Below are positions 3,821 through 30,650 of a DNA stretch of 33,727 nt, piece by piece. Positions within the stretch are counted from its first letter, which is position 1. Every line of letters begins with the position of its first letter. The notes beneath the pieces are model-generated. The model made no database searches. It was not told the DNA's origin and saw only the letters and a list, made by a program, of their open reading frames with translations. Made by a program: the position numbers and the translations under genes. The stretch lies in the NCBI GenBank assembly GCA_009992505.1, contig JAACVI010000113.1, positions 1 to 33,727 of the forward strand, in the 5' to 3' direction. This DNA is from Myxococcales bacterium (GTDB lineage Bacteria; Myxococcota_A; Polyangia; Polyangiales; Houyiibacteriaceae).

Positions 3821-5101
3821 TCACGGCTCCTCGAGCGCCCAGAGCGAGGAGATGGTGCCGCGGCGGCGGACCATGCGCGTCTTCTTTCCGTCGACCAGGA
3901 TCTCGCGCGCGGCGGGCCGGCCGTTGTAGGTGCTGCTCATCTCGCGGCCGTATGCGCCAGCGCCGCGGATGGCGAGCAGGTCGCCGCGCTTCACCGCGGG
4001 CAGGGGCCGACCTCGGGCGAGGAAGTCTCCGGACTCGCACACCGGGCCGACCACGTCGGCGGCGGACCACTCACCGAGGTGTTCGCGCACCGGCATCACG
4101 GCGTGGTGCGCGCCATAGAGCGCCGGTCGCACAAGCTCGGTCATGGCGCCGTCGACGATCACGAAGCGCCTGCCGCCTTGATGCTTCTCGGCCAAGACGC
4201 GCACGAGCAAGATGCCCGCGTCTCCGACCAGGGCGCGCCCCGGCTCCGTCACGACCTCGAGCCCGGCGTCGCTCATCCCGGCGTCCGCGATGCCCGCGGC
4301 GATGGCCGCGCCAAAGGCCTGATGGGGCGGGAAGGGCGTCTCCTCCGCGCCGTAGGACATGGGCCAGCCGCCCCCAGGATCGATGCTGCGCAAAGGCGCG
4401 CCCGCGTCAAGACACTCGCGCGCGAAGAGCGCCAACAAGCGCGTGGCCTCGCGCAGCGGCACGGGTGAGTCGAGCTGAGAGCCCACGTGGCAGGCGACGC
4501 CTTCGAGGCGCAGCGTGCGGCTCTGCACCAGGCGCGGCAGCAGGCTGCGGGCGACCGCGACTTCGAGGCCGAACTTGGTCGAGTGTAGACCCGTGGACAG
4601 GTAGGGATGGGAGCCCGAGTCCACGTCGGGGTTGATGCGCAGCGCCACGCGTACGGGCGCGTCCGGCGAGCCGAAGCGCTCGAGCAGGTCGAGCTCCTCG
4701 ATGCACTCGATGTGGATCGCGCGCAGTCCTGCGCCCGCGGCGACCCGCAGCTCGCGATCGCGCTTGCCGACGCCACTCCAGACGATGCGATCCGCGGGCA
4801 CGCCCGCTCGCAGGGCGCGACGCAGCTCACCCTCGGAGACGATGTCCGCGCCGGCGCCAGCTTTGGCCAGGCGCGCCAAGATCGCGAGGTTGCCGTTGGC
4901 CTTCACGGCGTAGGCGATCAGATGGGGCGCGAAGCTCATGGCCTGGTCGACCGCGGCGTACGCCTGGTCGACCACGCGCGCGCTGTAGACCCAGGTCGGA
5001 CCACCCTCGTCGGCCAGATCCGTCAGCGGGACGTCGTCACAGTGGAGGATCCCGTTGCGATAATGGAAGGCGGTCGAGGGAGGGAAGTGCACTGCGGTCA
5101 T
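3821..5101 (-). CDS. lysA: Diaminopimelate decarboxylase
   Basis: MTAVHFPPSTAFHYRNGILHCDDVPL...YAVKANGN (PLP lysine region), HVGSQL, DPGGGW, EPGR, CESGDFLA. Start reassigned to the ATG at 5101 inside the 905-aa ORF, giving an ATGA overlap with argH. Confidence 0.95.
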   Translation of the reverse strand: MTAVHFPPSTAFHYRNGILHCDDVPLTDLADEGGPTWVYSARVVDQAYAAVDQAMSFAPHLIAYAVKANGNLAILARLAKAGAGADIVSEGELRRALRAGVPADRIVWSGVGKRDRELRVAAGAGLRAIHIECIEELDLLERFGSPDAPVRVALRINPDVDSGSHPYLSTGLHSTKFGLEVAVARSLLPRLVQSRTLRLEGVACHVGSQLDSPVPLREATRLLALFARECLDAGAPLRSIDPGGGWPMSYGAEETPFPPHQAFGAAIAAGIADAGMSDAGLEVVTEPGRALVGDAGILLVRVLAEKHQGGRRFVIVDGAMTELVRPALYGAHHAVMPVREHLGEWSAADVVGPVCESGDFLARGRPLPAVKRGDLLAIRGAGAYGREMSSTYNGRPAAREILVDGKKTRMVRRRGTISSLWALEEP

Positions 5102-6534
5102 CGTCCTGTCACTTTCACGCCGAAGCGCTCGGCGACCTCTGCGGTGTCCACGCCGCGAGCCATGAGCTCGCCCACGAGGCGTTCCGTCTGGCTCGTCACC
5201 TGAGCGCGTGCGGGACCTCCCACGAGCGCGCGTCGCTCCACGGCGCGTTCGAAGTCGAGCGCCTCGTACACGTCCTGGTCGAAGGCCTCGTGGGCAGCCT
5301 TCAAGACCTCGAGGCTGAGCTCCGAGAGCACCTTCTTCTCCGCGCTGGCGCGCGCCACCAGAGCGCCGACGACGTGGTGTGCCTCGCGGAAGGGCACGCC
5401 TCGGGCGGCGAGGTAGTCGGCAAGCTCGGTCGCATCGGCGAAGCCTTCGCGCAGCGCGGCTCGCATGCGATCCCCGTCGAAGCGCGCCGTGGCGACGCAG
5501 CCCGTCAACACCTCGAGCGAGTCGTCGACGGTGTCGAAGGCGTCGAAGACCGGGCGCTTGTCCTCCTGCATGTCGCGGTTGTAGGCGAGGGGGAGCCCCT
5601 TCAGCATGACCAAGAGCGAGACGAGGTCGCCCACGACGCGTCCGGTCTTGCCGCGGATCAGCTCCGCCATGTCGGGGTTCTTCTTCTGCGGCATGATCGA
5701 CGAGCCCGTGGTGAAGGCGTCGCTCATCTCGACGAAGCCGAACTCCTGACTCGACCAGAGCACGAGCTCCTCGCCGATGCGCGAGAGGTGGACCGCGCAG
5801 TTCGCCAGCGCCGCCACGGCCTCGACCAGGAAGTCGCGGTCCGCGACGGCGTCCAGGCTGTTGCGCATGGGGCGACGAAAGCCGAGCGCGTGGGCGGTGG
5901 CCTCGCGATCGAGATCGAAGGTCGTGCCCGCCAGCGCGGCCGCGCCCAGGGGTGACTCGTTCATGCGGGCGGCGGCGTCGAGCATGCGTCCACGATCGCG
6001 GCCGAGCATCTCGGCCCAGGCGAGCAGGTGGTGGGAGAGGCGCACGGGTTGGGCGCGCTGCAGATGCGTGTAGCCCGGCATCAAGACGTGGATCTCGGTG
6101 CGCGCGCGCGAGGCCAGCACGGCCAGCACGGCGTCGATGGAGGCGGCCGTGTGCTCGCAGGCGCGCCGCGTGAACAGGCGCATGTCGGTGGCGACCTGGT
6201 CGTTGCGGCTGCGCGCGGTGTGGAGCTTGCCGCCCGCGGCGCCGATGCGCTCCGTCAGCGTGGCCTCGATGTTCATGTGCACGTCTTCGCGGGCGTCGGT
6301 GAACTCGAACTCGCCGGCGGCGATCTCCTCGGCGATGTGCGTGAGTCCCCGCTCGATGTTGAGCGCGTCCTCGAGCGGGACGATCCCGCGTTCGGCGAGC
6401 ATGCGCACGTGGGCGATGGAGCCCTCGACGTCCTCCGCGGCCAGGCGCTGGTCGACGTCGACGCTGGCGCTGAAGGCGAGGGCCTTGTCGTTCAACTCTT
6501 CCCCGAAGCGTCCGCCCCATGCCTTCTTGGTCAT
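5098..6534 (-). CDS. argH: Argininosuccinate lyase
   Basis: 478 aa; KKAWGGRF N-terminus, TGSSIMPQKKNPD signature, PGYTHLQRAQPV. Confidence 0.97.
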   Translation of the reverse strand: MTKKAWGGRFGEELNDKALAFSASVDVDQRLAAEDVEGSIAHVRMLAERGIVPLEDALNIERGLTHIAEEIAAGEFEFTDAREDVHMNIEATLTERIGAAGGKLHTARSRNDQVATDMRLFTRRACEHTAASIDAVLAVLASRARTEIHVLMPGYTHLQRAQPVRLSHHLLAWAEMLGRDRGRMLDAAARMNESPLGAAALAGTTFDLDREATAHALGFRRPMRNSLDAVADRDFLVEAVAALANCAVHLSRIGEELVLWSSQEFGFVEMSDAFTTGSSIMPQKKNPDMAELIRGKTGRVVGDLVSLLVMLKGLPLAYNRDMQEDKRPVFDAFDTVDDSLEVLTGCVATARFDGDRMRAALREGFADATELADYLAARGVPFREAHHVVGALVARASAEKKVLSELSLEVLKAAHEAFDQDVYEALDFERAVERRALVGGPARAQVTSQTERLVGELMARGVDTAEVAERFGVKVTGR

Positions 6535-6555
6535 CCAAACCTTCTCTCTCGGGCC

Positions 6556-8835
6556 TCAGCCGCGTGCGGGAATTCTGAGCGCGACACGCCTCAACAGGCG
6601 CGCCCCCGCGGGAAGCGTGAGCGCGTCCACGGCCACCGCAAGCAGAGCGGCCAGAGTCGGGTCGAGCAGGCCGAGCGCGGACGCCGTCACCATCAGCCCA
6701 CCGATGCCCACGGTCGCGATGGCGCCACGCCAGGCTCCGTCGCGTGCGGCGCGCGCGATCCAGATGGCCGCCGCCGCGTCGCGGATGTCGTGGGTCGTCA
6801 ACGAGACGGCGTGATCACCCGCGGGCGAGCCGGCGGCGCCGAGCACGATGGGCACGTCCGCCTCGGCCAGGGCGGCGCCGTCGCGCGCGGGATCACCGAC
6901 CAGGCCGACCAACCCGCCCGCATCTCCCAGGCGCGCCACCTCGGCGCCACGCTCGACGGGCGTGAGATCGGCCTTCACGTGGGTGATGTCTACGCGGGAC
7001 GCCAGCGCCTCGAGGGTGGTCCGATGATCACCACCCAGCAGCACGACCTCGACGCCCAGATCGAGCACCCGCTGGATGGCGGCGCGCGCGCCCGCGCGAA
7101 CCGGATCGCGGAGCGAGAGCAGCGCGCGCACCCGACCGTCGACGGCCATGAACAAGGCCGTGTGCCCCCGTGCTTCTTCCAGCTCCGCCTCGGGCTCGGC
7201 GGCGGCGACGGAGACGCCCTGCTCGAGCAGGAGCTGGCGGTTGCCGATGGCCACGGGTTCGCCGCCGGGGCCCACGGCCGTGACGCCGCGACCGGGCTTG
7301 CGCAGGACCCGGCGTACGGTGGGCAGGGAGAGCTTCATCTCGCGTGCGCGTGCGGTGAGCGCGCGGGCGATGGGGTGCTCCGTCAGCGTGGCTTCGCAGG
7401 CGGCGGCCAGGGCGAGGCTGGCGTCCGCCGAGGCGCCATCGATGGGGTGAATCGCCACCACGGTGGGCGCGCCCGTCGTGACCGTGCCACGCGCCGAAAG
7501 GGCCACCACGCTGAGGTGCCCCGCCGTCTCGAGGGCGAGCGCGTCGCGGAAGACGATGCCGCGCTCTGCGGCAGCGGCCGCGGCGGCTTCGAGGGGCAGC
7601 TCGGCGGAGCGGCGCGCGGCCAGCAGCGGTGCGGCCAGGAGCACTGCGGCGGCCGCGGCCAGACGACCCGCGAAGCCAGGCATGCCCGTCAACGCGAGGC
7701 CGCTGAGCGCGGCCCCGAAGGCGAACAGACCACCCCAGCGGGTGATGCGACCGGCGAAGCGCGCGGAGGCGGCTGCTCCTCGCCCGCGGTCGACCCCGAA
7801 GCGTGCCATGCGCAGCAGCGCGCGTTCGTCGCCCACGCGCGTCGCGAGCACGCGGATGGCGCCGCTCTCGACCCGTGCCCCGGCCAGCACCGGATCGCCT
7901 TCCTTGCGTGGGCTCGGGGCGGCCGCCGTCGGATGCAGCCAGACCATCGCGTCGCCCGCACGCACGACTCCGTCCACGGTCACGACCTCACCCTCGAGCG
8001 CCATCACCTCGTCGCCAGAGCGCACGAACTCGTCGCGCACTTCGTCGTAGGTCAGCGCCAGGGAGTCGTCGTCCCTTCGCGGCACCCGGGCGCCGCGTGG
8101 AATGCGCTCGGCCAAGCTCGAGGTCACGGCGTGCACGGGCGCGCGCGCGCGGCGGTCGAGCCAGACGCGGCCGACGACCGCCAGCGAGGCGACGCCCGCT
8201 CCTGCCAAGCCGAGCCACGCCGTGGGGTCGTCCAATCGTGCCCACAGGGCCGCTGCCGCCGCCAGGCTCGCGCCCAGGGGCGCGCCCAACCAGGCGGGGA
8301 AGCCGACCTCGCGCCGCAGACTCGCGCTCGAGCTCAAGGTCGCGAGGGAGGCGAGCAGCGTGGCTCCGGCGCTCAACCAGGCCGCCGCGAGGGAGGTGGC
8401 GGCGAGCCCGAGCACGGCAGCGAGCAAGCTGGCGATCAGGGGTAGGCGCAAGCCCTCTTCGGCGCTCTCGGGCTGGGCGGCCGTGGGTGCGCGCAGGGCG
8501 CCGGGCAGCGTGGTACGGGTCGCCTCGCGCACGAGCTCGGTCAGGGTGGGGTCACGCCGCGGCTGGCGAGGCTCCTCGTGAGGTCGCTCGCCTTCGCCGA
8601 AGTGCTTGCGGCAGGCCTCGTCGCACAGGAAGCGCAGCCCGGTCTCGAGCGCGACGACCTCGGCGGCCCTCAGCGGGTCGACCGGGCGCCCGCAGGCGGG
8701 GCAGGGTCGCGAAGGCGCCGTGGGCCTCGAGGGATGCACGGGGGCTGCGTACGTTTGAGCGAGCAATGCGTCAAGCCCGCGCCCTCGAGCGAGGCACGAG
8801 TCGAGTGCAGCGTGCGCGGGCTCGCGCGTGCGCAT
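6556..8835 (-). CDS. P1B-type ATPase-like protein with degenerate catalytic motifs and N-terminal CxxC...C...C (TRASH/YHS-like) segment; probable pseudo-ATPase
   Basis: 759 aa; several hydrophobic segments; A-domain-like GDEVMALEGEVVTVDGVV...VLAGARVESGAIRV; AERGIVFRDALALETAGHLSVVALSARGTVTTG aligns with the DKTGTLTxG region; TEHPIARAL (SEHP-like); VGLVGDPARDGAALAEADVPIVLG aligns with the GDGxND region. The catalytic residues are substituted. Confidence 0.8.
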   Translation of the reverse strand: MRTREPAHAALDSCLARGRGLDALLAQTYAAPVHPSRPTAPSRPCPACGRPVDPLRAAEVVALETGLRFLCDEACRKHFGEGERPHEEPRQPRRDPTLTELVREATRTTLPGALRAPTAAQPESAEEGLRLPLIASLLAAVLGLAATSLAAAWLSAGATLLASLATLSSSASLRREVGFPAWLGAPLGASLAAAAALWARLDDPTAWLGLAGAGVASLAVVGRVWLDRRARAPVHAVTSSLAERIPRGARVPRRDDDSLALTYDEVRDEFVRSGDEVMALEGEVVTVDGVVRAGDAMVWLHPTAAAPSPRKEGDPVLAGARVESGAIRVLATRVGDERALLRMARFGVDRGRGAAASARFAGRITRWGGLFAFGAALSGLALTGMPGFAGRLAAAAAVLLAAPLLAARRSAELPLEAAAAAAAERGIVFRDALALETAGHLSVVALSARGTVTTGAPTVVAIHPIDGASADASLALAAACEATLTEHPIARALTARAREMKLSLPTVRRVLRKPGRGVTAVGPGGEPVAIGNRQLLLEQGVSVAAAEPEAELEEARGHTALFMAVDGRVRALLSLRDPVRAGARAAIQRVLDLGVEVVLLGGDHRTTLEALASRVDITHVKADLTPVERGAEVARLGDAGGLVGLVGDPARDGAALAEADVPIVLGAAGSPAGDHAVSLTTHDIRDAAAAIWIARAARDGAWRGAIATVGIGGLMVTASALGLLDPTLAALLAVAVDALTLPAGARLLRRVALRIPARG

Positions 8836-8859: not shown

Positions 8860-10647
8860 CTAGGGCGCGGCATTCGCGGGTGTGCTGGCCGGAGGGGCCG
8901 CCCGCGTGATCCAGACCGCGGTGCCCGGCTCGCCCACGCGGGCGAACACGCCGTGCCAGGAGTCGGGCAGCGTCGGTAGGCTCCACTGGAAGAGATAGCG
9001 TGCGTCCGCAGGGGCCAGGTTCACACAGCCATGGCTCTTCACGTGGCCAAACGCGGAGTGCCAGAAGGCGGCGTGCAGGGCGAAGTTGCCCTCGAAGTAC
9101 ATCGTCCAGGGCACGTCCTCGATCAGGTAGGACTCCTCGCCTCGACCGAGGTCGTCCATGGTCGTCGACAGATGCTTGGACTGGATGTGGAACAGGCCGG
9201 TCGGCGTGTCGTGGCCCTCGCGACCGCTCGAGACCACCGTGGCGAAGTTCGGGTCGTCGCCCACGTAGGCGACCAGAGTCTGGGTATCGAGATCCACGTG
9301 GATCCAGCGCTCCTGCGGGCCGACGCCGGCGGGTCGTGCATGCACGCGAGCGATGCGCAGCGACGAGGAGCGCACCAGAAACCCGTCCGAGGACACGGCG
9401 TAGGGGTGGTCGCCGCGCCGGATCTCTTCCGCGACAGGGAAGGGCGTCAGGCGCGCGACGATGCCGTCGTCGGAGAGCCGACCGCTGCTGGGGTCGCGCA
9501 GCAATCGATGCGTGCCGTCGCGGTAGACGAAGGCCACGGGGAGCTGCCACGCGCCACCCAGAACGACGCCACGATGGTCGGGCGGATCGTTGGGCGTCAC
9601 GGCGTCCGCGCTCACGTAGCCCCCGCGGATCGTGCGCAGGAAGCGGCGATTCCCATCGCGCTCCTCGTGATCCACGCTGACGTAGAAGCCTCGACGCAGG
9701 ACGCGCCTCAGGATGCTGGGCATGGCCGGGACCCCGCCGTCCGTTGCGACTCCGGCGTCGGGCGCGCGCCTGATGGGGGCCGCGGTCACCGTCGCCACGG
9801 TTCCCTCTTCGGCCACCAGACGGTCAGCGTCGTCGCTGTCGTCGTCCGTGCCCGGAGGCGGAGGTGCCTCGACCCCGTCATCGCCAGCCGCGTCGTCGGG
9901 CTGGGACTCGGGCGTCGGGGCCGCCGGGGCCGCCGTCGCTGCGTTCGCGGCGCGCGCCAGGCTGCGCGCGATGGCCGCGCGTGCTTCGGCCTCTTCCGCG
10001 ACCGTGGGCAGGCGCCAGAACTCGGGTTCGTGGTCGTGGGCGACCCAGACGTAGGCGTAGGGCAGGGCGTCGTCGATGGCGGGCGGCACCGGCGAGGGCT
10101 CGAAGCTCTGCGGGTCCGCACCTATCTTCGTGCCTTCCCCGCGGCAGACGAAGCCTCCACCCGGCACCGGGAAGAATCCGCGAGCGCAGCCCACGCCTGC
10201 GGCGCGTTGTCCGGCACGGAAACGGGCGCCACGACGCATGTAGCCGATGACGGTCGCGTTCGCGTTGGGCTCGGCGTAGACGCGGGTCAGGAAATGGAAC
10301 GCGACGCCACCCATCGGCCAGCGCGTCTCGAAGGCGATGCGGTCAGCCTCGACGCGAGCGCGCTCTGCACGCTCGGCGCGCTCGCCCGCCGCGGCTTCGG
10401 CCTGCGGTCGCGCAGCTTCGAGGGCTCTCGCCCGTGCCCGCTGCTCACGTTCGGCGAGGCGGGCCTCCACGGCGCGGGCTCGGGCCGCGGCCCGGCGCTG
10501 GACTTGTAGCTCCGCCGCCGTGGGCGCACCTGCGTCGAGCGTGCCCGTGCCCGTGTCGGCGTCGGGGGCGCCGAGGCCACCCGTACAGGCCTGAGTCAGC
10601 GCCAGGGAGAGGACGAGGAAGAGGACGGACGCGCGCGCCGTGGACAT
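8860..10647 (-). CDS. L,D-transpeptidase (YkuD) lipoprotein
   Basis: Start at MSTARASVLFLVLSLALTQACTGG (lipobox), within ORF 8860..10974. YkuD motif HAAFWHSAFGHVKSHGCVNLAPADARYLF. Upstream SH3-like segment (RVYAEPNANATVIGYMRRGARF). Confidence 0.88.
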   Translation of the reverse strand: MSTARASVLFLVLSLALTQACTGGLGAPDADTGTGTLDAGAPTAAELQVQRRAAARARAVEARLAEREQRARARALEAARPQAEAAAGERAERAERARVEADRIAFETRWPMGGVAFHFLTRVYAEPNANATVIGYMRRGARFRAGQRAAGVGCARGFFPVPGGGFVCRGEGTKIGADPQSFEPSPVPPAIDDALPYAYVWVAHDHEPEFWRLPTVAEEAEARAAIARSLARAANAATAAPAAPTPESQPDDAAGDDGVEAPPPPGTDDDSDDADRLVAEEGTVATVTAAPIRRAPDAGVATDGGVPAMPSILRRVLRRGFYVSVDHEERDGNRRFLRTIRGGYVSADAVTPNDPPDHRGVVLGGAWQLPVAFVYRDGTHRLLRDPSSGRLSDDGIVARLTPFPVAEEIRRGDHPYAVSSDGFLVRSSSLRIARVHARPAGVGPQERWIHVDLDTQTLVAYVGDDPNFATVVSSGREGHDTPTGLFHIQSKHLSTTMDDLGRGEESYLIEDVPWTMYFEGNFALHAAFWHSAFGHVKSHGCVNLAPADARYLFQWSLPTLPDSWHGVFARVGEPGTAVWITRAAPPASTPANAAP

Positions 10648-10799
10648 GTTTGAAGTGCTCTCACGGCGCCTCGGATGCGTAAAGAATTCGGCAGTACGTC
10701 GGGGTCGCATGACGGGAACAACCGCCGGCTCCGGCGCGCCGATTCCCGACCACGATCGACGCGCGCGTGTTCGAGCCGCGAGGCCGCGCGTCGGATGCG

Positions 10800-13502
10800 T
10801 CAGCGCAGGAAGAGCCGCGGGTCGTCGGGGCGGGCGTCGAGGTGAAGGTGGTCCCGATGGCCTTCGTTGTAGTTCGGCGTGAGCACGGACGAGAAGAGAT
10901 CGCTGCGGGAGATGGCGCAGGCGATGGCTCGCAGGCGTCGGGCCTTGGCGCCCGAAGGAGCCGGTCCCGTGCACGTGCCCTGGTCGGGCGTGGCCGCGTA
11001 GTCGTCGAGCACCGAGAGCCAGCCCGTGCTCGTCCAGAAGCGCGCGAGGTCGAGGCCGAGTCCCATGGTGTGGAAGCTCGTGCGCGGGTGATCGCGATAG
11101 GCCGAGAGGATGTCCACGCCCAGCACGCCCCGCTCTTTCAAGACACGCATCAGGGCGGGCAAGCGCGCCGCGAGCTCGCAGGAGATGACGAGCGGTCGCT
11201 CCGGATGCATCGAGCGCAGCCAGACGCCCTCGATCGGTCCCAGCAGCTCCACGGGCGTGGGCACGAGCGCGCTCTGCGGCGGGCTGGGTCGCATCAGAAC
11301 GCCCTGTTGGCGCAGGTCCTCGAGGCAGGCCTCGCTCGGGCGGATCGGGAAGCTCGCCTGTCGTCGCACGCGCCAGACCGCGCCCGGGACGAGCGCGCGG
11401 AAGTTCTCGAAGTGGGGGATCAGCTGCCAGATGGCGCGCGCCGCGTCGCCCGCCTGATCACCGGCTGGGGCAAGGAACTCACGTGGCGCGTGCGGGACGG
11501 GCGGCGCCTCGGGGATCGGCAAGCTCGAGGCGAGGGGGCTGCCGTCGTCGGGGCCCGCGCCCTCGCTCGGCGTCCGCGTGCCGGGGAGGCGCCAGAGGTC
11601 GTCGAAGTAGCCCACGTCCAGAGGACGATTCGGGCCGAAGACGCGTCGCTGAGCACCGCGCAGCGTGCGCGCGTCGAAGACCACCCAATCGCCGCCGAAC
11701 TCGGCCAGCTTGTTGGCGGCGCCAACCTGCTCGGGCGTGACCGCCGCCTGCACCACCACGTAGCGTCCTGGCGCGAGCGGGTTGGGGTAGATGAAGCGCA
11801 CGCCCACGTCGTCGCCGTCGAAGCGCCGGTCGCCGATGCTCACGCCGTGCGCGTCCACGTGGATCGGCAAGGCGCCGTCCATGCGCGTCAGGAGCGTGTT
11901 GTCCCCCGGTGAGCCGTACAGCACGATCGTGGCCGAGCGCATCATCTCGGGTGTCACCTCGCTGTCGGCGACGACCTGCTGCTTCAGATCCCAGGCCCAC
12001 AGAGGCCAACCGCGGGCGCCACGCTGCGCCGCGTCGCGCAGTGCATCCGTGTGCTCGGCGTTGGCCGTGCCGTAGACGTGGATCATGGCGTCGAAGTAGG
12101 CGTCCGTGATCGGGCCCGAGAGCTCCGGGCGCTTCTCCCTCGCGCGCGCGTCGGGGAATCCGCGCTGCCACTCGTCTCCACGTCTCACCAGATGCAGCGC
12201 CTGACCCAGTGCAGCGCGCGGGCCCGCGTAGACCTCCTGCCCGTCCGCGACGACGCGCACGGGGTCGCCCTCGAGAGGACAGCGGCTCAGGTCCACACGC
12301 AGCGCGCCGGCGCCGTGCGTCTCGAGCGAGAGCTGCGCGCCCTCCACGTGCCCATGCACGTTCGCCAGATCCGGATAGCTCTGGATGTGCGTCAGCCGAA
12401 GCCAATGTTGCTCGGCGGCGCGGTAGTCCCCCGACACCAGCAAGACGTCGTGGGGTCGCGGGTCGCGTCGCTCCTCGGCGAGCTGCGCGTAGATGCGACC
12501 GTGGCGATGCACGTAGTAGAGGATGTCGTGACCGGTGTCGTACCAGGTCGCGTGGTTGTCCATGCCCAGCTCGTCGAGGTGAGCCTCGAAGGCGCGCACG
12601 TAGTCCGGGCGCATGGGGCCGCCGTCGCGCAGGCCGTGGTAGTAGCGAAAGTGGGTGTTGGTCAGGTTCTTCGCCAGGTCCATGGCCGACCAGGGGCGCA
12701 CGGAGCGCTCGACCTCGGGCCGCGTGCGCCCGAGGTATTGCAGCCAGCTCGGCGCGCCCGACATGGCCTGCACCACGCTGAAACGTGAGGCGTGACGCGC
12801 GCCCACGGCGTAGGCGCCGACGCCGCCGTTAGACAGCCCACCCAGCACCACGCGGTCCTCGTCCACGTGGTAGTGGCGCTCCACGTCCGCCAGCACGTCG
12901 AGCAGATCCTGCTCGCCCATCCAGCGCCACATCACCTGCCCAAAGCCCGTGGGCGCGACCACGATCCACGCGGGCGACCACTGCGGCGTGTACACGTCGT
13001 ACAGGTGCTCGGGGTAGGTCAGCCAGTCCATGTTGTTCCCGAGCACGACACCCAGGAAGAGGTTGCCGTTGGACGAGCCGCCGTGGAGCGCGATGTACAC
13101 GGGGTAGGCGCGTGAGGGGTCGTAGTCCGGCGGCACGTACACGCCGTAGTTCTGCAGCGCGGGGCTGATGCGCGACTGGTAAGCGCGCACCGTGATCTCG
13201 CCCTTGGCCTCGGCGAAGGGATCGGCGCCCGCCTCGGCGCGCGTGAGGTAGTGGTCGGCGCGGGCTCGCCAGGCGTCGGACTCGGGCTCGTGCTCGTCGC
13301 GCATGCGCGAGGCCTGCTCCAGCTCGTAGCGGATCGAGGTCAACGCACCCTCGGGCACGGCGGCGGGGTGGTGCGCCTCCAGAGCTGCGAGGCGCTGCAT
13401 CAGGGCGTCGGTCCCCTGCGCGCGCGCCGGCCTGGCCGAGGCGGCGGTCAGGATCGCGAGGGTGAGAATCAGGAGCGGTCGGCGGGTGCCCATCGGGCGC
13501 AT
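10800..13502 (-). CDS. Secreted fusion: alpha/beta hydrolase (esterase/PHB-depolymerase-like) + C-terminal extensin-like/M15-type peptidase domain
   Basis: 900-aa single ORF; signal peptide (LLILTLAILTAASARPARAQ); nucleophile elbow GGLSNGGVG with DTGHD; C-terminus LSAYRDHPRTSFHTMGLGLDLARFW...NYNEGHRDHLHLD (HxxGxxxD ... HxH). Confidence 0.75.
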   Translation of the reverse strand: MRPMGTRRPLLILTLAILTAASARPARAQGTDALMQRLAALEAHHPAAVPEGALTSIRYELEQASRMRDEHEPESDAWRARADHYLTRAEAGADPFAEAKGEITVRAYQSRISPALQNYGVYVPPDYDPSRAYPVYIALHGGSSNGNLFLGVVLGNNMDWLTYPEHLYDVYTPQWSPAWIVVAPTGFGQVMWRWMGEQDLLDVLADVERHYHVDEDRVVLGGLSNGGVGAYAVGARHASRFSVVQAMSGAPSWLQYLGRTRPEVERSVRPWSAMDLAKNLTNTHFRYYHGLRDGGPMRPDYVRAFEAHLDELGMDNHATWYDTGHDILYYVHRHGRIYAQLAEERRDPRPHDVLLVSGDYRAAEQHWLRLTHIQSYPDLANVHGHVEGAQLSLETHGAGALRVDLSRCPLEGDPVRVVADGQEVYAGPRAALGQALHLVRRGDEWQRGFPDARAREKRPELSGPITDAYFDAMIHVYGTANAEHTDALRDAAQRGARGWPLWAWDLKQQVVADSEVTPEMMRSATIVLYGSPGDNTLLTRMDGALPIHVDAHGVSIGDRRFDGDDVGVRFIYPNPLAPGRYVVVQAAVTPEQVGAANKLAEFGGDWVVFDARTLRGAQRRVFGPNRPLDVGYFDDLWRLPGTRTPSEGAGPDDGSPLASSLPIPEAPPVPHAPREFLAPAGDQAGDAARAIWQLIPHFENFRALVPGAVWRVRRQASFPIRPSEACLEDLRQQGVLMRPSPPQSALVPTPVELLGPIEGVWLRSMHPERPLVISCELAARLPALMRVLKERGVLGVDILSAYRDHPRTSFHTMGLGLDLARFWTSTGWLSVLDDYAATPDQGTCTGPAPSGAKARRLRAIACAISRSDLFSSVLTPNYNEGHRDHLHLDARPDDPRLFLR

Positions 13503-19695: not shown

Positions 19696-20193
19696 ATGCG
19701 CTTCGCCACTCATCGCCTCCTGCCCCTCTTCGTGCTCGTCTCCTTGCTCGGCTGCGCTCCGGATCCGCATCTGTCGGCTTCGGGCCTCGCCAGCGTTCAG
19801 GTCGGCAGCACGGTGTCGGGCTTCGACTTCGCCCAACCCACGCGCCTGTCCGAGGACGCCCTCGAGACTTTGCCCGCCGGCACCCCCGCGGGACGCTGCG
19901 TGCTCGGTCCCTCGGGTGTGAGCTTCGCCCTCGCGCGGGCCACCGCCGGCGTGCCCGGGAGCGTCAGCCTCGAGTCGCTCGAGGTCGTCGTCCACGACGT
20001 GGGCGATCCCGAGGTGCGCGTCTCTTTGAGTGACGGTCTCTACCTGCCGTCCGGAACCTGCGACGTCACGCTCGTCTACGCGAACCGCGCCGACCAGGTC
20101 GCCGCCTTCACGGCGAGCTGCGATCTCGACGGTCCCTCGGGTGCGGCCCACTTCGACGCCAACCTCGAGTACGCCGCCTGCCGCGTTCAGTGA
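19696..20193 (+). CDS. Hypothetical lipoprotein
   Basis: MRFATHRLLPLFVLVSLLGCAPD (lipobox LLGC); four further Cys. Confidence 0.7.
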   Translation: MRFATHRLLPLFVLVSLLGCAPDPHLSASGLASVQVGSTVSGFDFAQPTRLSEDALETLPAGTPAGRCVLGPSGVSFALARATAGVPGSVSLESLEVVVHDVGDPEVRVSLSDGLYLPSGTCDVTLVYANRADQVAAFTASCDLDGPSGAAHFDANLEYAACRVQ

Positions 20194-22508
20194 GTGGCGG
20201 CTCGTCGTTCTGACACATCCGGCCAGGGCAGGGTGGGCGTGATGCGGAGCGCGCGACCATCCGTCTCGACCATCACGCCTCCGACCGTGTCCGTGCGTAG
20301 CGCGTAGGAGGCCACGTCGCGCAGCCGCGCCAACGTCTCCAGGTGCGGATGACCGAAGCGATTCTGTCGGCCGCAGCTCACGATGGCCCAACGCGGCCGC
20401 ACGAGATCGAGGAAGGCCAACGTCGACGACGATCGCGATCCGTGATGCGGCACCTTCAGCACGTCCGCGTAGAGCGCGTGGCCCAGGCGCAGGAGCCCGT
20501 GCTCCGCGAGCGCCTCCACGTCTCCGGTGAAGAGCAGGCGATGACGCCCGTACTGGATCCGCAGCACGAGGGAGTTGTCGTTCAGGTCGTAGCCCGAGTC
20601 GTAGCCAGGGCACGGCGCGAGCACCTGGGCCACGGCATGCGCGAAGAGACGCGGCCGCCCACACAGTTCGGACGGATAGAAGATGCGCGTTCCTGAGTCG
20701 CGCGCGCGCCGGATGATGCGGCTCACGCTCTCTCCGGGCGCCTCCTGCTCCGACTGACGATTCAGCCACAGCTCGCGGATCGGCACGCCAGCGTCGAGCA
20801 AGGCCTCGAGTCCGCCGTAGTGATCGGGGTGTCCGTGGGTGAGCACGAAGACGTCCACGTGACCGCGACGCCTAGCTGCCAAGAGCGGCAAGATCACGCG
20901 TTCCGGCGCCTGGCCTTCGCGCGGACCCGCGTCGATCATCATCAGCTCGCCGTCGGGCAGGTCGACCATGGCGCCGTCGCCCTGACCGATGTCGAGGTAG
21001 GTCGCGCGCAACCGATCGTGGGGCCGCTCCTGCACGCGCAGGCTCCACTCGAGGCCGAACAGGGCGCAGACGAGCAGGCAGAGCAGCACGAGCCCATGGC
21101 GCGGGCGACGCATGAAGAGTCCGATGCCGCAGGCGATGGCCAGCACGAGCCCCTGGGCCCAGCTCAGCGGTGGGAGCACGGACGCGGGGCCCACGGACGC
21201 GGCGGCGGCGGACGCGGCGAGCAGCGCGCGCACGAGCTCCGTCAGGGGTTTGCCCGTGAGGGCAGCGACACTTGGCAGACCCAGCGCGAGTCCGGCGTGC
21301 AGCCAGGTCAGCGGCACCAGCACGAGCGCGAAGAGCGGCAGGACGAGCACGTTCACGAGCCAGCCCAGCAGCGGCGCCTGGGCGAAGACGTAGGCCGTGA
21401 AGGGCGTGGTCGCGAGCAACGCCCGTCCCGCGCTGCGAGCGAGGCGCTTGAGCGCGTCTCCGTCGCCGCCGCCCCCGAGCAAGGCCGAGGTGGCGAGCAC
21501 CGAGAGCAAGAGCGCGGGCGAGAGCGCGTCCGTCGGCGCCCAGAGCGTGAGCATCAGGATGGCCATGGCAGAGATGGTGGGGGCGTGGGCGCGCCGGCCG
21601 AGGACGCGCATGCCCAGCGCGAGGCCCGCCGTCAGCGCCGCGCGTTGCGCGCTAGGCGCGTTCCCCGCGAAGGCCGCCAGCGGCGAAGCGAGCACCAGCC
21701 CGAGCAGCGCGGCCCAGCGTCCCGCGTCCGCCACCACGCGACTCAGGAGCGCACGCCACAGGGCGACGAGAAGGCCCAGCAGCAACGTGATGTGCAAGCC
21801 CGAGACGGCCATCAGATGCGCGAGTCCGGCTGCTCGCACATGCGCCCGGTCCTCGGGATCGAGGGCGCCCCCTTCGCCCAGCAACAGCGCACGCGCAACG
21901 CCCACCACGTCGGCGGGCAGGCTGCGCTCGAGGGCACGTCGCGCGCGTCCTCGCGCCTGCTCGAGGGCATCGGCCGCGGCGCTTCGCGACAAGACGCGCG
22001 GCGCCACGCCTTCGACCCGCCGCGCGCGGCCCGCGATGCCTCCATGCGTGGGCCAGGCAGGGTGGGGCGTCTCGTCGTAGAAGCGGGCGAAGGGCCTCAG
22101 CTTGGCCAGCAGGCGCACGCGCGCGCCGACGGGCAGGGGCGAATCCAGCAACAGACGCGTGCGTGGCAGCGGGGCGCCGTCCTCCAGCATTCGGCCGCGC
22201 TCGATCTGGATCACCGAGAGCCGCTCGCTTCCGCGTGTGCGTTCCTCTACTACCCTGGCGTCGAGGCGCGCGGTCCCGGCGTGGATCACGGGCGCCTCGG
22301 CCTCGGGCGCGACGGCCAGGCCCGCGGAGAGCGCCGCGGCGAGCAAGAGCACGGCCGCGCGTTGTGGTCGGAAGAAGAGCCCCGTGCTCAGCGCCAACGC
22401 CAGCGCGCCGGCGGGCGCTCGCCAGGCGTCGGGCCACAGCCCCGAGAGCAGGAGGCCGAGGTACCAGGCCGCGACGAGTGCGGGCAGGGCGCGTGCATGG
22501 AGACGCAT
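20187..22508 (-). CDS. comEC: ComEC/Rec2-family DNA internalization channel protein
   Basis: 773 aa; ComEC signature HLMAVSGLHITLLLGL; C-terminal metallo-beta-lactamase domain VLTHGHPDHYGGLEAL, LKVPHHGSRSS. Confidence 0.92.
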   Translation of the reverse strand: MRLHARALPALVAAWYLGLLLSGLWPDAWRAPAGALALALSTGLFFRPQRAAVLLLAAALSAGLAVAPEAEAPVIHAGTARLDARVVEERTRGSERLSVIQIERGRMLEDGAPLPRTRLLLDSPLPVGARVRLLAKLRPFARFYDETPHPAWPTHGGIAGRARRVEGVAPRVLSRSAAADALEQARGRARRALERSLPADVVGVARALLLGEGGALDPEDRAHVRAAGLAHLMAVSGLHITLLLGLLVALWRALLSRVVADAGRWAALLGLVLASPLAAFAGNAPSAQRAALTAGLALGMRVLGRRAHAPTISAMAILMLTLWAPTDALSPALLLSVLATSALLGGGGDGDALKRLARSAGRALLATTPFTAYVFAQAPLLGWLVNVLVLPLFALVLVPLTWLHAGLALGLPSVAALTGKPLTELVRALLAASAAAASVGPASVLPPLSWAQGLVLAIACGIGLFMRRPRHGLVLLCLLVCALFGLEWSLRVQERPHDRLRATYLDIGQGDGAMVDLPDGELMMIDAGPREGQAPERVILPLLAARRRGHVDVFVLTHGHPDHYGGLEALLDAGVPIRELWLNRQSEQEAPGESVSRIIRRARDSGTRIFYPSELCGRPRLFAHAVAQVLAPCPGYDSGYDLNDNSLVLRIQYGRHRLLFTGDVEALAEHGLLRLGHALYADVLKVPHHGSRSSSTLAFLDLVRPRWAIVSCGRQNRFGHPHLETLARLRDVASYALRTDTVGGVMVETDGRALRITPTLPWPDVSERRAATH

Positions 22509-28247: not shown

Positions 28248-30650
28248 ATGGATCTCCCCAGGCCTTTCGGTCAATACAGCCTGTTGCGCCGCTTGGCCGT
28301 AGGCGGGATGGCGGAGGTCTATGTAGGCAAGGCGCGCGGTCTCGGTGGCTTCGAGAAGCTCGTGGCCATCAAGGTCATCCACCCGCGCTACTCCGAGGAT
28401 CCGCACTTCCTCGACATGTTGGTGGACGAGGCCAAGCTCGCGGTCCTGCTGAACCACGTCAACATCGCCCAGGTCTTCGACCTCGGGCAGCACGAGCACA
28501 CCTACTTCATCGTGATGGAGTTCGTCGAAGGCGCCGACACCTCGAGGTTGTTGGCCCGGACGCGCGAGCTCTCGAAGAAGCTGCCCTTCGACGTGTGCGC
28601 CCACATCGCGGCCGAGGTCTGCAACGGCCTCGACTACGCGCATCGTCGGCGTGACTCGGAGGGGCGCCCCCTCGGCATCGTGCATCGCGACATCTCGCCC
28701 CAGAACGTGATGGTCAGCTTCGCCGGCGAGGTGAAGGTCGTCGACTTCGGCATCGCCAAGGCCGCTCAGCGCTCGAGCGAGACCGAGGTCGGGGTGATCA
28801 AGGGCAAGTACTACTACATGTCGCCGGAGCAGGCCTGGGCCGATCCCGTGGACCACCGCAGCGACATCTTCTCCACCGGCGTCGTGCTCTACGAGCTGCT
28901 CACGGGCGAGATGCTCTATCAGGAGAACAACCTGCCAGACCTGCTGGCCAAGGTGCGCAAGGCGGAGATCGACCCACCGTCCAGCGTGCGCCACGGAATC
29001 CCCGAGGAGCTCGACGCCATCACCATGAAGGCGTTGGCGGCGCGCCCCGAGGATCGCTACCAGTCGGCCTTCGACTTCGGTCAGGCGCTGACCCAGTTCG
29101 TCTACGGCTTCAACGCCTCCTTCGCTTCCGGCCGCATGGCGGCGCTGATGGCGGAGGCCTTCTCGGACGAGCTGGCCAAGGCGACGGCGACCATCCGGCT
29201 GCCTTCGGCGGAGCAGGTGCTGACCTCCAACATGACGACCGACGGCGGTGGCTCCACGGAGGAGCACTCGCTGCCACCCATGAACGCGGACGACTTCCTG
29301 CCCGACTCGGCCAAGAGCGTGATCTTCGAACTCGAGGCGGACGAACGCGACCACATGACGCGTCGGGACATCCCTCCCTATCGGCGGCGCGCCAACCTCG
29401 CGGCCACGTCCGACGAGGCCCGACGGCAGACCGGTCCCGTGTCCATCGTGGAGTCCCTGCCCGCCGTCGACGAGGCCGACGAGGAGGAGGACCGGACGAT
29501 CGTGCAGACCGGTGGCCCGGAGCTGTGGCGTTCTCTGGGCATCGGGCGCCCGGCCGCACGACCGAAGGACGACGAGAGCGACACCAGCAGTCCGGGCTTC
29601 GCGCCGGAGCCCACGATGGTGGACTCCACCGGCGATCTCGCGCGGCGCGTGCGCGAATCGTTGTCCGACAAGCGCGCCGGTCGGGGCGTGGCTCCGCCAC
29701 CCGTGGCGCGCCCATCCGCGCCCCCACCCGTAGCCCGCCCATCCGCGCCCCCACCCGTAGCCCGCCTGTCGGCTCCGCCACCCGGGGTGATGCCGCCTCC
29801 GGCACCCATGCCCACGCCACGCCCTGCCGCAACGCTGCCCTGGGGAGGCGCCCCCGTTCACCACTCCCCACCACCGCCACCTGGTCCCGCGCCGCCCGGC
29901 TCGATCCCAGCGGCGGATCCCTTCGCTCCGCCTTCCTTCCCTGGGATGGATCCCTTCGGCCCGCCGCCCCCCCTCTCTGCCGAGCCGCTGCCCGCGGTGG
30001 CCAACTTCTCCGCCGCGAGCGCGATGGTCGCGAACCTGCGCCGGCGCTGGCGCTGGGTTCTGGGCCTGGTCGTCGTCGTGACCGTCCTCGCCTTCGCCTT
30101 CGGCGCGCTGCTCTCTCCGGGCTCCCCCGAGGCCACGCTCTCGATTCGCTCGACACCGGCGGGTGCCCGGGTGCAGCTCGACGGGCACGCGCTCCCCGGC
30201 CTGACGCCCCTGGCGAGCGTTCCCGTGGAGGTGGGCCATTCCTATCATTTGCGCGTCGAAGCCCAAGGCTATCGACCCACCGAGGTCGTGTTCACCGCTC
30301 GCGCGGGTTCCCAGGGGCAGACCGTGTCGCTACAGCGCCCGCGCGTGAGGCTCAGGGTCGAGGCCTCCACAGCGGAGCTACGGGTCAGCATCAACGGCTC
30401 GGAACCCCAACCTCCGCCTGTGGAGATTCCGGGTCTGCTGCCGGGCAGCAGCGTGCGCATCCTGGTCTCGGGACCTGGAGACGCGCCCGAGCGCGAGCTC
30501 TCGCACGTGGTCAGCACCGACGATCCCAACGTCCTGAACGTCGATCCGCCGCCGTCGGCCGCCGTCCCGGAGCCTGCGCCGCCTCCAGGTCGGCCACCGC
30601 GTCGGCCGGCGCCGCGTCGGCCGCACATCTTCCGGCTCCCGCGACACTGA
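28248..30650 (+). CDS. Ser/Thr protein kinase with Pro-rich linker, TM segment and extracytoplasmic PEGA-like domain
   Basis: LAVGGMAEVYVGKA, VAIKVI, IVHRDISPQNVMV, VDFGIAKA, SPEQAW; TM WVLGLVVVVTVLAFAFGALL; PEGA-like ATLSIRSTPAGARVQLDG...VEVGHSYHLRVEAQGYRP. Confidence 0.93.
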   Translation: MDLPRPFGQYSLLRRLAVGGMAEVYVGKARGLGGFEKLVAIKVIHPRYSEDPHFLDMLVDEAKLAVLLNHVNIAQVFDLGQHEHTYFIVMEFVEGADTSRLLARTRELSKKLPFDVCAHIAAEVCNGLDYAHRRRDSEGRPLGIVHRDISPQNVMVSFAGEVKVVDFGIAKAAQRSSETEVGVIKGKYYYMSPEQAWADPVDHRSDIFSTGVVLYELLTGEMLYQENNLPDLLAKVRKAEIDPPSSVRHGIPEELDAITMKALAARPEDRYQSAFDFGQALTQFVYGFNASFASGRMAALMAEAFSDELAKATATIRLPSAEQVLTSNMTTDGGGSTEEHSLPPMNADDFLPDSAKSVIFELEADERDHMTRRDIPPYRRRANLAATSDEARRQTGPVSIVESLPAVDEADEEEDRTIVQTGGPELWRSLGIGRPAARPKDDESDTSSPGFAPEPTMVDSTGDLARRVRESLSDKRAGRGVAPPPVARPSAPPPVARPSAPPPVARLSAPPPGVMPPPAPMPTPRPAATLPWGGAPVHHSPPPPPGPAPPGSIPAADPFAPPSFPGMDPFGPPPPLSAEPLPAVANFSAASAMVANLRRRWRWVLGLVVVVTVLAFAFGALLSPGSPEATLSIRSTPAGARVQLDGHALPGLTPLASVPVEVGHSYHLRVEAQGYRPTEVVFTARAGSQGQTVSLQRPRVRLRVEASTAELRVSINGSEPQPPPVEIPGLLPGSSVRILVSGPGDAPERELSHVVSTDDPNVLNVDPPPSAAVPEPAPPPGRPPRRPAPRRPHIFRLPRH
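29694..29774 (+). repeat. 27-bp coding tandem repeat x3 (PPPVARPSA)
   Basis: Peptide PPPVARPSA-PPPVARPSA-PPPVARLSA within the kinase linker. Confidence 0.85.

Follow-up and report, generated by a model that had tools for sequence, protein, structure and literature searches.

The 33,727 nucleotides of Myxococcales DNA analysed here (the window) encode on the minus strand a protein which has kept the architecture of a P1B-type heavy-metal ATPase and lost the residues by which such an enzyme pumps. P-type ATPases are defined by the phosphorylated Asp of the DKTGT motif, which is essential for transport. The protein belongs to an ancient, order-wide clade of P1B descent whose members have lost DKTGT and GDGxND, needed for phosphorylation, TGE, needed for dephosphorylation, and CPC with the M5 and M6 ligands, needed for metal translocation, and this clade is a pseudoenzyme variant of the P1B ATPases and not a P1B pump. 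Two different arrangements tie its gene closely to genes of arginine biosynthesis. From these sequence data we propose, at a probability of roughly 0.45, that a P1B pump has been turned into a membrane-anchored regulator or scaffold which would bind metal and nucleotide and would be tied to arginine synthesis. The features of the locus are collected in Table 1.

Table 1 Features of the pseudo-ATPase gene, its product and its neighbours (positions in the window)
Feature	Position	Strand	Residues and basis
P1B-type pseudo-ATPase gene	6556..8835	-	759-codon ORF; probable start GTG 8737-8739, about 727 aa
Cys4 TRASH/YHS-like finger, putative metal site	8611..8703	-	C45-x2-C48 ... C71-x3-C75; alignment, hhalign
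First membrane helices, counterpart of MA, MB, M1, M2	8107..8469	-	residues 123-243; hydropathy, AlphaFold
A-domain	7771..8106	-	residues 244-355; PF00122, AlphaFold model
TGE position, here PTA	7924..7932	-	residues 302-304; Glu absent from all members
CPC position in M4, here PLL	7621..7629	-	residues 403-405, by alignment; both Cys gone
DKTGT position, here SARGT	7483..7497	-	residues 447-451; Asp absent from all members
N-domain	7141..7461	-	residues 459-565; E481, H487-P488, G515-x-G517, G531-N532 retained
GDGxND position, here GDPARD	6880..6897	-	residues 647-652; alignment
M5-M6	6586..6795	-	residues 681-750; Tyr-Asn, Met and Ser-Ser metal ligands lost; acidic residue 737
argH (argininosuccinate lyase)	5098..6534	-	21 bp downstream of the pseudo-ATPase gene; PF00206, PF14698
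lysA (diaminopimelate decarboxylase)	3821..5059	-	TIGR01048-matched region, above cut-off
L,D-transpeptidase (YkuD) gene	8860..10974	-	directly upstream of the pseudo-ATPase gene

The similarity of the protein to P1B ATPases is far above chance. An earlier note on this DNA had recognised segments resembling the A-, P- and N-domains in P1B order, and the homology indeed spans these three domains and the membrane core. The P1B model TIGR01525 matches with E 2e-69 and 235 bits, which is below its curated cut-off of 346.25, while the generic model TIGR01494 is passed (64.6 vs 62.3) and PF00122 and PF00702 exceed their gathering cut-offs. Legionella CopA (3rfu) is matched over residues 211-741 with E 8e-47. 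An AlphaFold2 model computed from a 39-row alignment (pLDDT 91, pTM 0.82) has its best Foldseek matches among CopA, ATP7B and ZntA structures (7r0g, TM 0.65/0.74). Hydropathy and the AlphaFold helices agree with the 4+2+2 membrane topology of the P1B lineage, with an approximate count for the first bundle. The whole-core homology, the domain order, an eight-helix-type topology and the E, H, GxG and GN of the N-domain are thus common to the pseudo-ATPase and the heavy-metal pumps (CopA/CopB/ZntA; TIGR01525). Unlike these, however, the pseudo-ATPase is without DKTGT, TGE, CPC and GDGxND and forms a separate clade.

The reading frame is open over all 759 codons without a frameshift, as the earlier note had stated, but its 5' end probably has to be moved: homologues begin with [M/V]xPxRP..PCPACG, and GTG 8739 (Val33) is therefore the probable true start. 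A plus-strand ORF (6028-8445) that overlaps the gene was rejected as a high-GC mirror, the homology being on the minus strand. Such mirror ORFs on the opposite strand are common at this GC content; elsewhere in the window, a gene for a Ser/Thr kinase with a PEGA domain (28248-30650) is also mirrored by a long ORF on the other strand. A sequencing or assembly artefact was rejected, since dozens of genomes obtained independently, some of them single-contig, show the motifs in the same state.

Residues were compared in one alignment of 39 degenerate members and 28 intact pumps. The replacement of DKTGTLT by SARGTVT (7477-7497), with Ser447 in place of the Asp, had been described before, together with HPTAAAP at the TGE position, AAPLLAARR at the CPC position and a surviving TEHP, and all four readings are correct for the window protein. 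The same is true of GDPARD at the GDGxND position, but the first Asp of this sequence is itself gone in most relatives; across the 39 members one G and the last D of the motif are retained, and its first D, the other G and the N are lost. At the position of the phosphorylated Asp the members have Cys (17 of 39), Ser (10), Ala (4) or Leu (3). The Ser is consequently not a fixed replacement, only the loss of the Asp being conserved, and a role of Ser as substitute phosphoacceptor was rejected. The Glu of TGE is lost throughout, with Ala, Ser or Gly at its position in 39/39. Furthermore, the P-domain Lys is replaced by Arg in 34/39, and, relative to the 28 intact pumps, both CPC cysteines, the Tyr-Asn of M5 and the Met and Ser-Ser of M6 are gone. 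The motifs are missing in all of the about 70 members inspected. The other P1B ATPases inspected, one of them (L002) from the genome of the window itself, all have DKTGT.

Of 145 genomes of the order, 83 gave a homologue in a single-sequence search (E<=1e-60), and of 97 searched with a profile (E<=1e-95), 74 did so. Where no match was obtained, some genomes nevertheless have a member that is divergent or cut off, and in some no member was seen. A scan of contigs with the window protein alone gave just one near-identical fragment. In a genome of the same genus (G019) the gene runs off the contig end, and the 118 residues that remain are 95% identical. No member was found outside the order, either in about 83 further genomes of the class or in phylum samples, and each locus inspected in these encoded an intact pump. 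Across the order, the frames of the family are open over 700-870 codons. The family profile gives complete members about 330-985 bits and intact pumps at most 315, with two divergent degenerate proteins (L081, L092) at or below that maximum. In the tree a single branch with 100% SH-aLRT splits 33 degenerate from 32 intact proteins. One origin followed by vertical descent fits this tree because the degenerate proteins cluster mostly by family of the order. More divergent degenerate members come from further genera and families within the order (L075, L081, L092, L076, L102, L085), and the missing A-domain alignment in some of them suggests further erosion.

Despite the lost motifs the gene is kept by selection. 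Nei-Gojobori dN/dS was 0.05-0.30 in 17 of 19 pairs, 0.55 and 0.47 in the two pairs of greatest divergence (identity of 54% and 60% at the amino-acid level) and 0.05 over 118 codons between the window protein and the fragment of its congener. When ten pairs were pooled, the two halves of the P-domain had the lowest values (0.06 and 0.10), followed by the N-domain (0.16), the A-domain (0.16), M3-M4 (0.16), M5-M6 (0.18), the finger (0.22), the first helices (0.30) and the linker (0.31). Relative to intact pumps, the mean column identity of members is lower in M3-M4 (0.30 against 0.62), not lower in the N-domain (0.43 against 0.40) and higher in the finger (0.45 against 0.23), a contrast that is indicative only, because the two sets differ in breadth. 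The membrane transport path is relaxed, and the whole fold is under purifying selection. The earlier note had argued against simple decay and for a maintained non-transporting paralogue, and had named an intact DKTGT among homologues and a dN/dS near 1 as signs of the opposite. Neither holds, because none of the clade's homologues inspected carries the motif and the dN/dS values are far below 1; order-wide relatives without the motifs, under purifying selection, support both of its views.

Two parts of the protein suggest what selection might act on. The first is an N-terminal C-x2-C...C-x3-C finger (residues 45-75), which is invariant in all 39 rows of alignment A1 and agrees with the TRASH/YHS ligand set C/D-x2-C ... 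C-x3-C. In hhalign it matches the DPVCGM...FCxxxC YHS domains of intact pumps with 96.7% probability (E 4.5e-10). Pfam YHS gave no significant match, only weak zinc-finger and DUF models being found, and the archaeal TRASH model matched in 4 of 14. Since the Cys4 set is invariant and the finger resembles YHS domains by profile, a metal site is likely on sequence grounds. The ligand spacing is the same as in YHS/TRASH domains such as the N-terminal YHS of bacterial Cu-ATPases. However, the finger of the pseudo-ATPase has four Cys, like TRASH, and is joined to a dead pump. YHS domains, by contrast, often begin their ligand set with Asp. The TRASH domain of the ribosomal protein L24e holds a metal ion by four Cys in its crystal structure, and the YHS domain of an adenylyl cyclase of Mycobacterium phlei is a probable Cu sensor (PMC4626032).

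The second part is the N-domain, in which the nucleotide signature (E, HP, GxG, GN) can still be read: G515, G517 and G531 are present in 39/39 members, E481 in 34/39 and H487 in only 27/39, and residue 532 is Asn or Ser, much as in intact pumps. By motif, residues 515, 517, 531 and 532 would correspond to G1099, G1101, G1149 and N1150 of ATP7B, which lie close to ATP by NMR (PMC3203118). In addition, the clade has acquired invariant residues of its own (R508, R533, Q588, D592, G669, A687).

The strongest functional clue, which the earlier note did not contain, is the operon link to arginine biosynthesis. In the window the gene lies between the L,D-transpeptidase gene and argH-lysA. Among the mapped loci, argH is directly downstream in 20 of 21 genomes of family f1, in 6/6 of f9 and in the single genomes of f2, f4, f8 and f10; many loci have a gap of about 8-23 bp, and elsewhere it extends to as much as about 340 bp. 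The second arrangement, argD-argF-gene-fur, is found in f12, presumably the Polyangiaceae, with argD upstream in 21 of 23 loci (TIGR00707 above cut-off) and argF (TIGR00658 above cut-off) likewise upstream. Of 12 distinct f12 loci tested, 9 have the ATG of the pseudo-ATPase overlapping the stop codon of argF (ATGGnTGA or similar), and a start/stop overlap is a usual sign of translational coupling. A fur gene follows next downstream in 13/23 f12 loci and in some f7 loci; loci with a Fur-family regulator gene directly downstream, which may be of the Fur, Zur or PerR subtype, include L042, L044, L047, L052, L185 and L229. The argH-lysA pair is older and also occurs outside the order, and an undivided argD-argF-gene-argH cluster was not seen among the loci mapped. 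Either an ancestral arginine cluster was split into the two arrangements or they arose independently; in the former case they may be weak functional evidence. The link is not obligatory, since it is absent in f5, where cinA and recA, or a YkuD gene, are nearby instead, and in most f3 loci. Other genes of the window include one for a dynamin-like GTPase near the argH-lysA end (961-2727), a type of gene that also stands beside argH in f12 genomes without the pseudo-ATPase there, and one for a ComEC-like competence protein with a metallo-beta-lactamase domain (20187-22508).

The loss of the pumping residues, the retained selection and the usual arginine operon point to a regulator or scaffold rather than a transporter. 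The protein would pump nothing; its Cys4 finger would bind a transition metal, its N-domain may retain ATP or ADP binding, and the cytosolic A-, N- and P-domains would relay the metal or nucleotide state to a partner. Most likely this partner would be the arginine pathway, at the level of its enzymes or its regulation, or a Fur-family regulator where fur follows. The metal sensor considered in the earlier note fits, at the level of sequence, the invariant Cys4 finger and the fur gene of many f12 and some f7 loci. A bolder version is put forward tentatively: a single conversion, at or before the base of the order, would have made a P-type ATPase into a membrane regulator that senses metal and ATP, is co-translated with arginine enzymes and controls or scaffolds their pathway, a class not described so far.

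Against this regulator or scaffold several other readings have to be weighed. The protein could be a non-pumping subunit which associates with an intact P1B ATPase present in the cell, as its modulator or as its supplier of metal, in the manner of a prozyme. The intact pump in the same genome and the retained finger would suit such a partnership, and dead paralogues that activate their partners have a precedent (PMC5201418). We consider it unlikely, as none of the mapped loci has an adjacent intact P1B gene, the co-directional coupling is with arg genes, and conservation is lowest in the membrane path, at which metal would be shared between two pumps.

Slightly less likely again is an energy-independent conduit, in which the membrane domain would serve as a passive channel or facilitator, perhaps for a cationic solute, arginine or ornithine for example. 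Residue 737 in M6 (codon 6625-6627) is acidic in 31/39 members and Ser in intact pumps; it is a possible new intramembrane site, to judge by the alignment, and together with the arginine operon it speaks for a conduit. But compared with intact pumps the membrane domains are the least conserved, M4 is not lined by invariant polar residues, and a conduit would leave the constraint on the cytosolic domains without a reason.

The linkage to L,D-transpeptidase offers an alternative partner and counts against the arginine regulator. The pseudo-ATPase might regulate or anchor this neighbouring enzyme in a cell-wall role, with the arginine genes as bystanders. A YkuD gene is nearby, in variable orientation, in f1 (6/21), f3 (8/8), f4, f5 (2/8), f8 and f9. 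Its absence from the f12 and f7 loci mapped, the low share of f1 loci and the 34-36% identity of the f5 YkuD, which may be a different gene, make this role improbable. The window also has an esterase/extensin-C fusion-like gene (10800-13502), and YkuD and esterase/extensin-C-like genes occur near the pseudo-ATPase in f1, f3 and f8, with changes of orientation in f3.

If catalytic residues had migrated, some ATPase or phosphatase activity might persist. Such activity would agree with the strong constraint on the P-domain, where D652 is retained and D603 mostly retained in the 39-row alignment, but it is quite improbable, since the phosphorylated Asp and the Lys of the P-domain are gone, as are the Glu of TGE and the first Asp of GDGxND, and no single replacement of the phosphorylated Asp is conserved. 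A neutral relic, to which only the drift of the catalytic columns (Cys/Ser/Ala/Leu at the Asp position) would point, can be set aside for the family in view of the selection data, the new invariant residues and the order-wide open frames.

Among described systems, the uncharacterized type-1 P-ATPase families 25, 27 and 32 of Saier have P1-type topology and members in Myxococcus and Streptomyces, families 27 and 32 being placed in Myxococcus (PMC3924187); the comparison with the pseudo-ATPase is by description only, and that paper is silent on a loss of the catalytic Asp. Pseudoenzymes in general (PMC10211241; prozyme, PMC5201418) resemble the present protein in that the fold is retained, catalytic residues are lost and ligand binding is possibly kept, and regulatory roles are known for them in other families (PMC10211241, PMC5201418). 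The text of the review PMC10211241 nowhere mentions ATPases, pumps or transporters. In the literature searched, which covered few subscription journals, no bacterial P-type ATPase clade without the catalytic Asp was found, no P-type ATPase given as an instance of a pseudoenzyme, and nothing relevant on arginine together with P1B.

The pseudo-ATPase passes a generic P-type annotation model, and counts of metal-efflux pumps that include it would be wrong. A conserved clade without the Asp in most of an order means that the P-type fold can be retained for a job other than transport. With a pseudo-pump and an intact pump in the same cell, the portions of the fold that are used only for sensing can be sought, and a role in arginine metabolism is open to direct test through the operon link.
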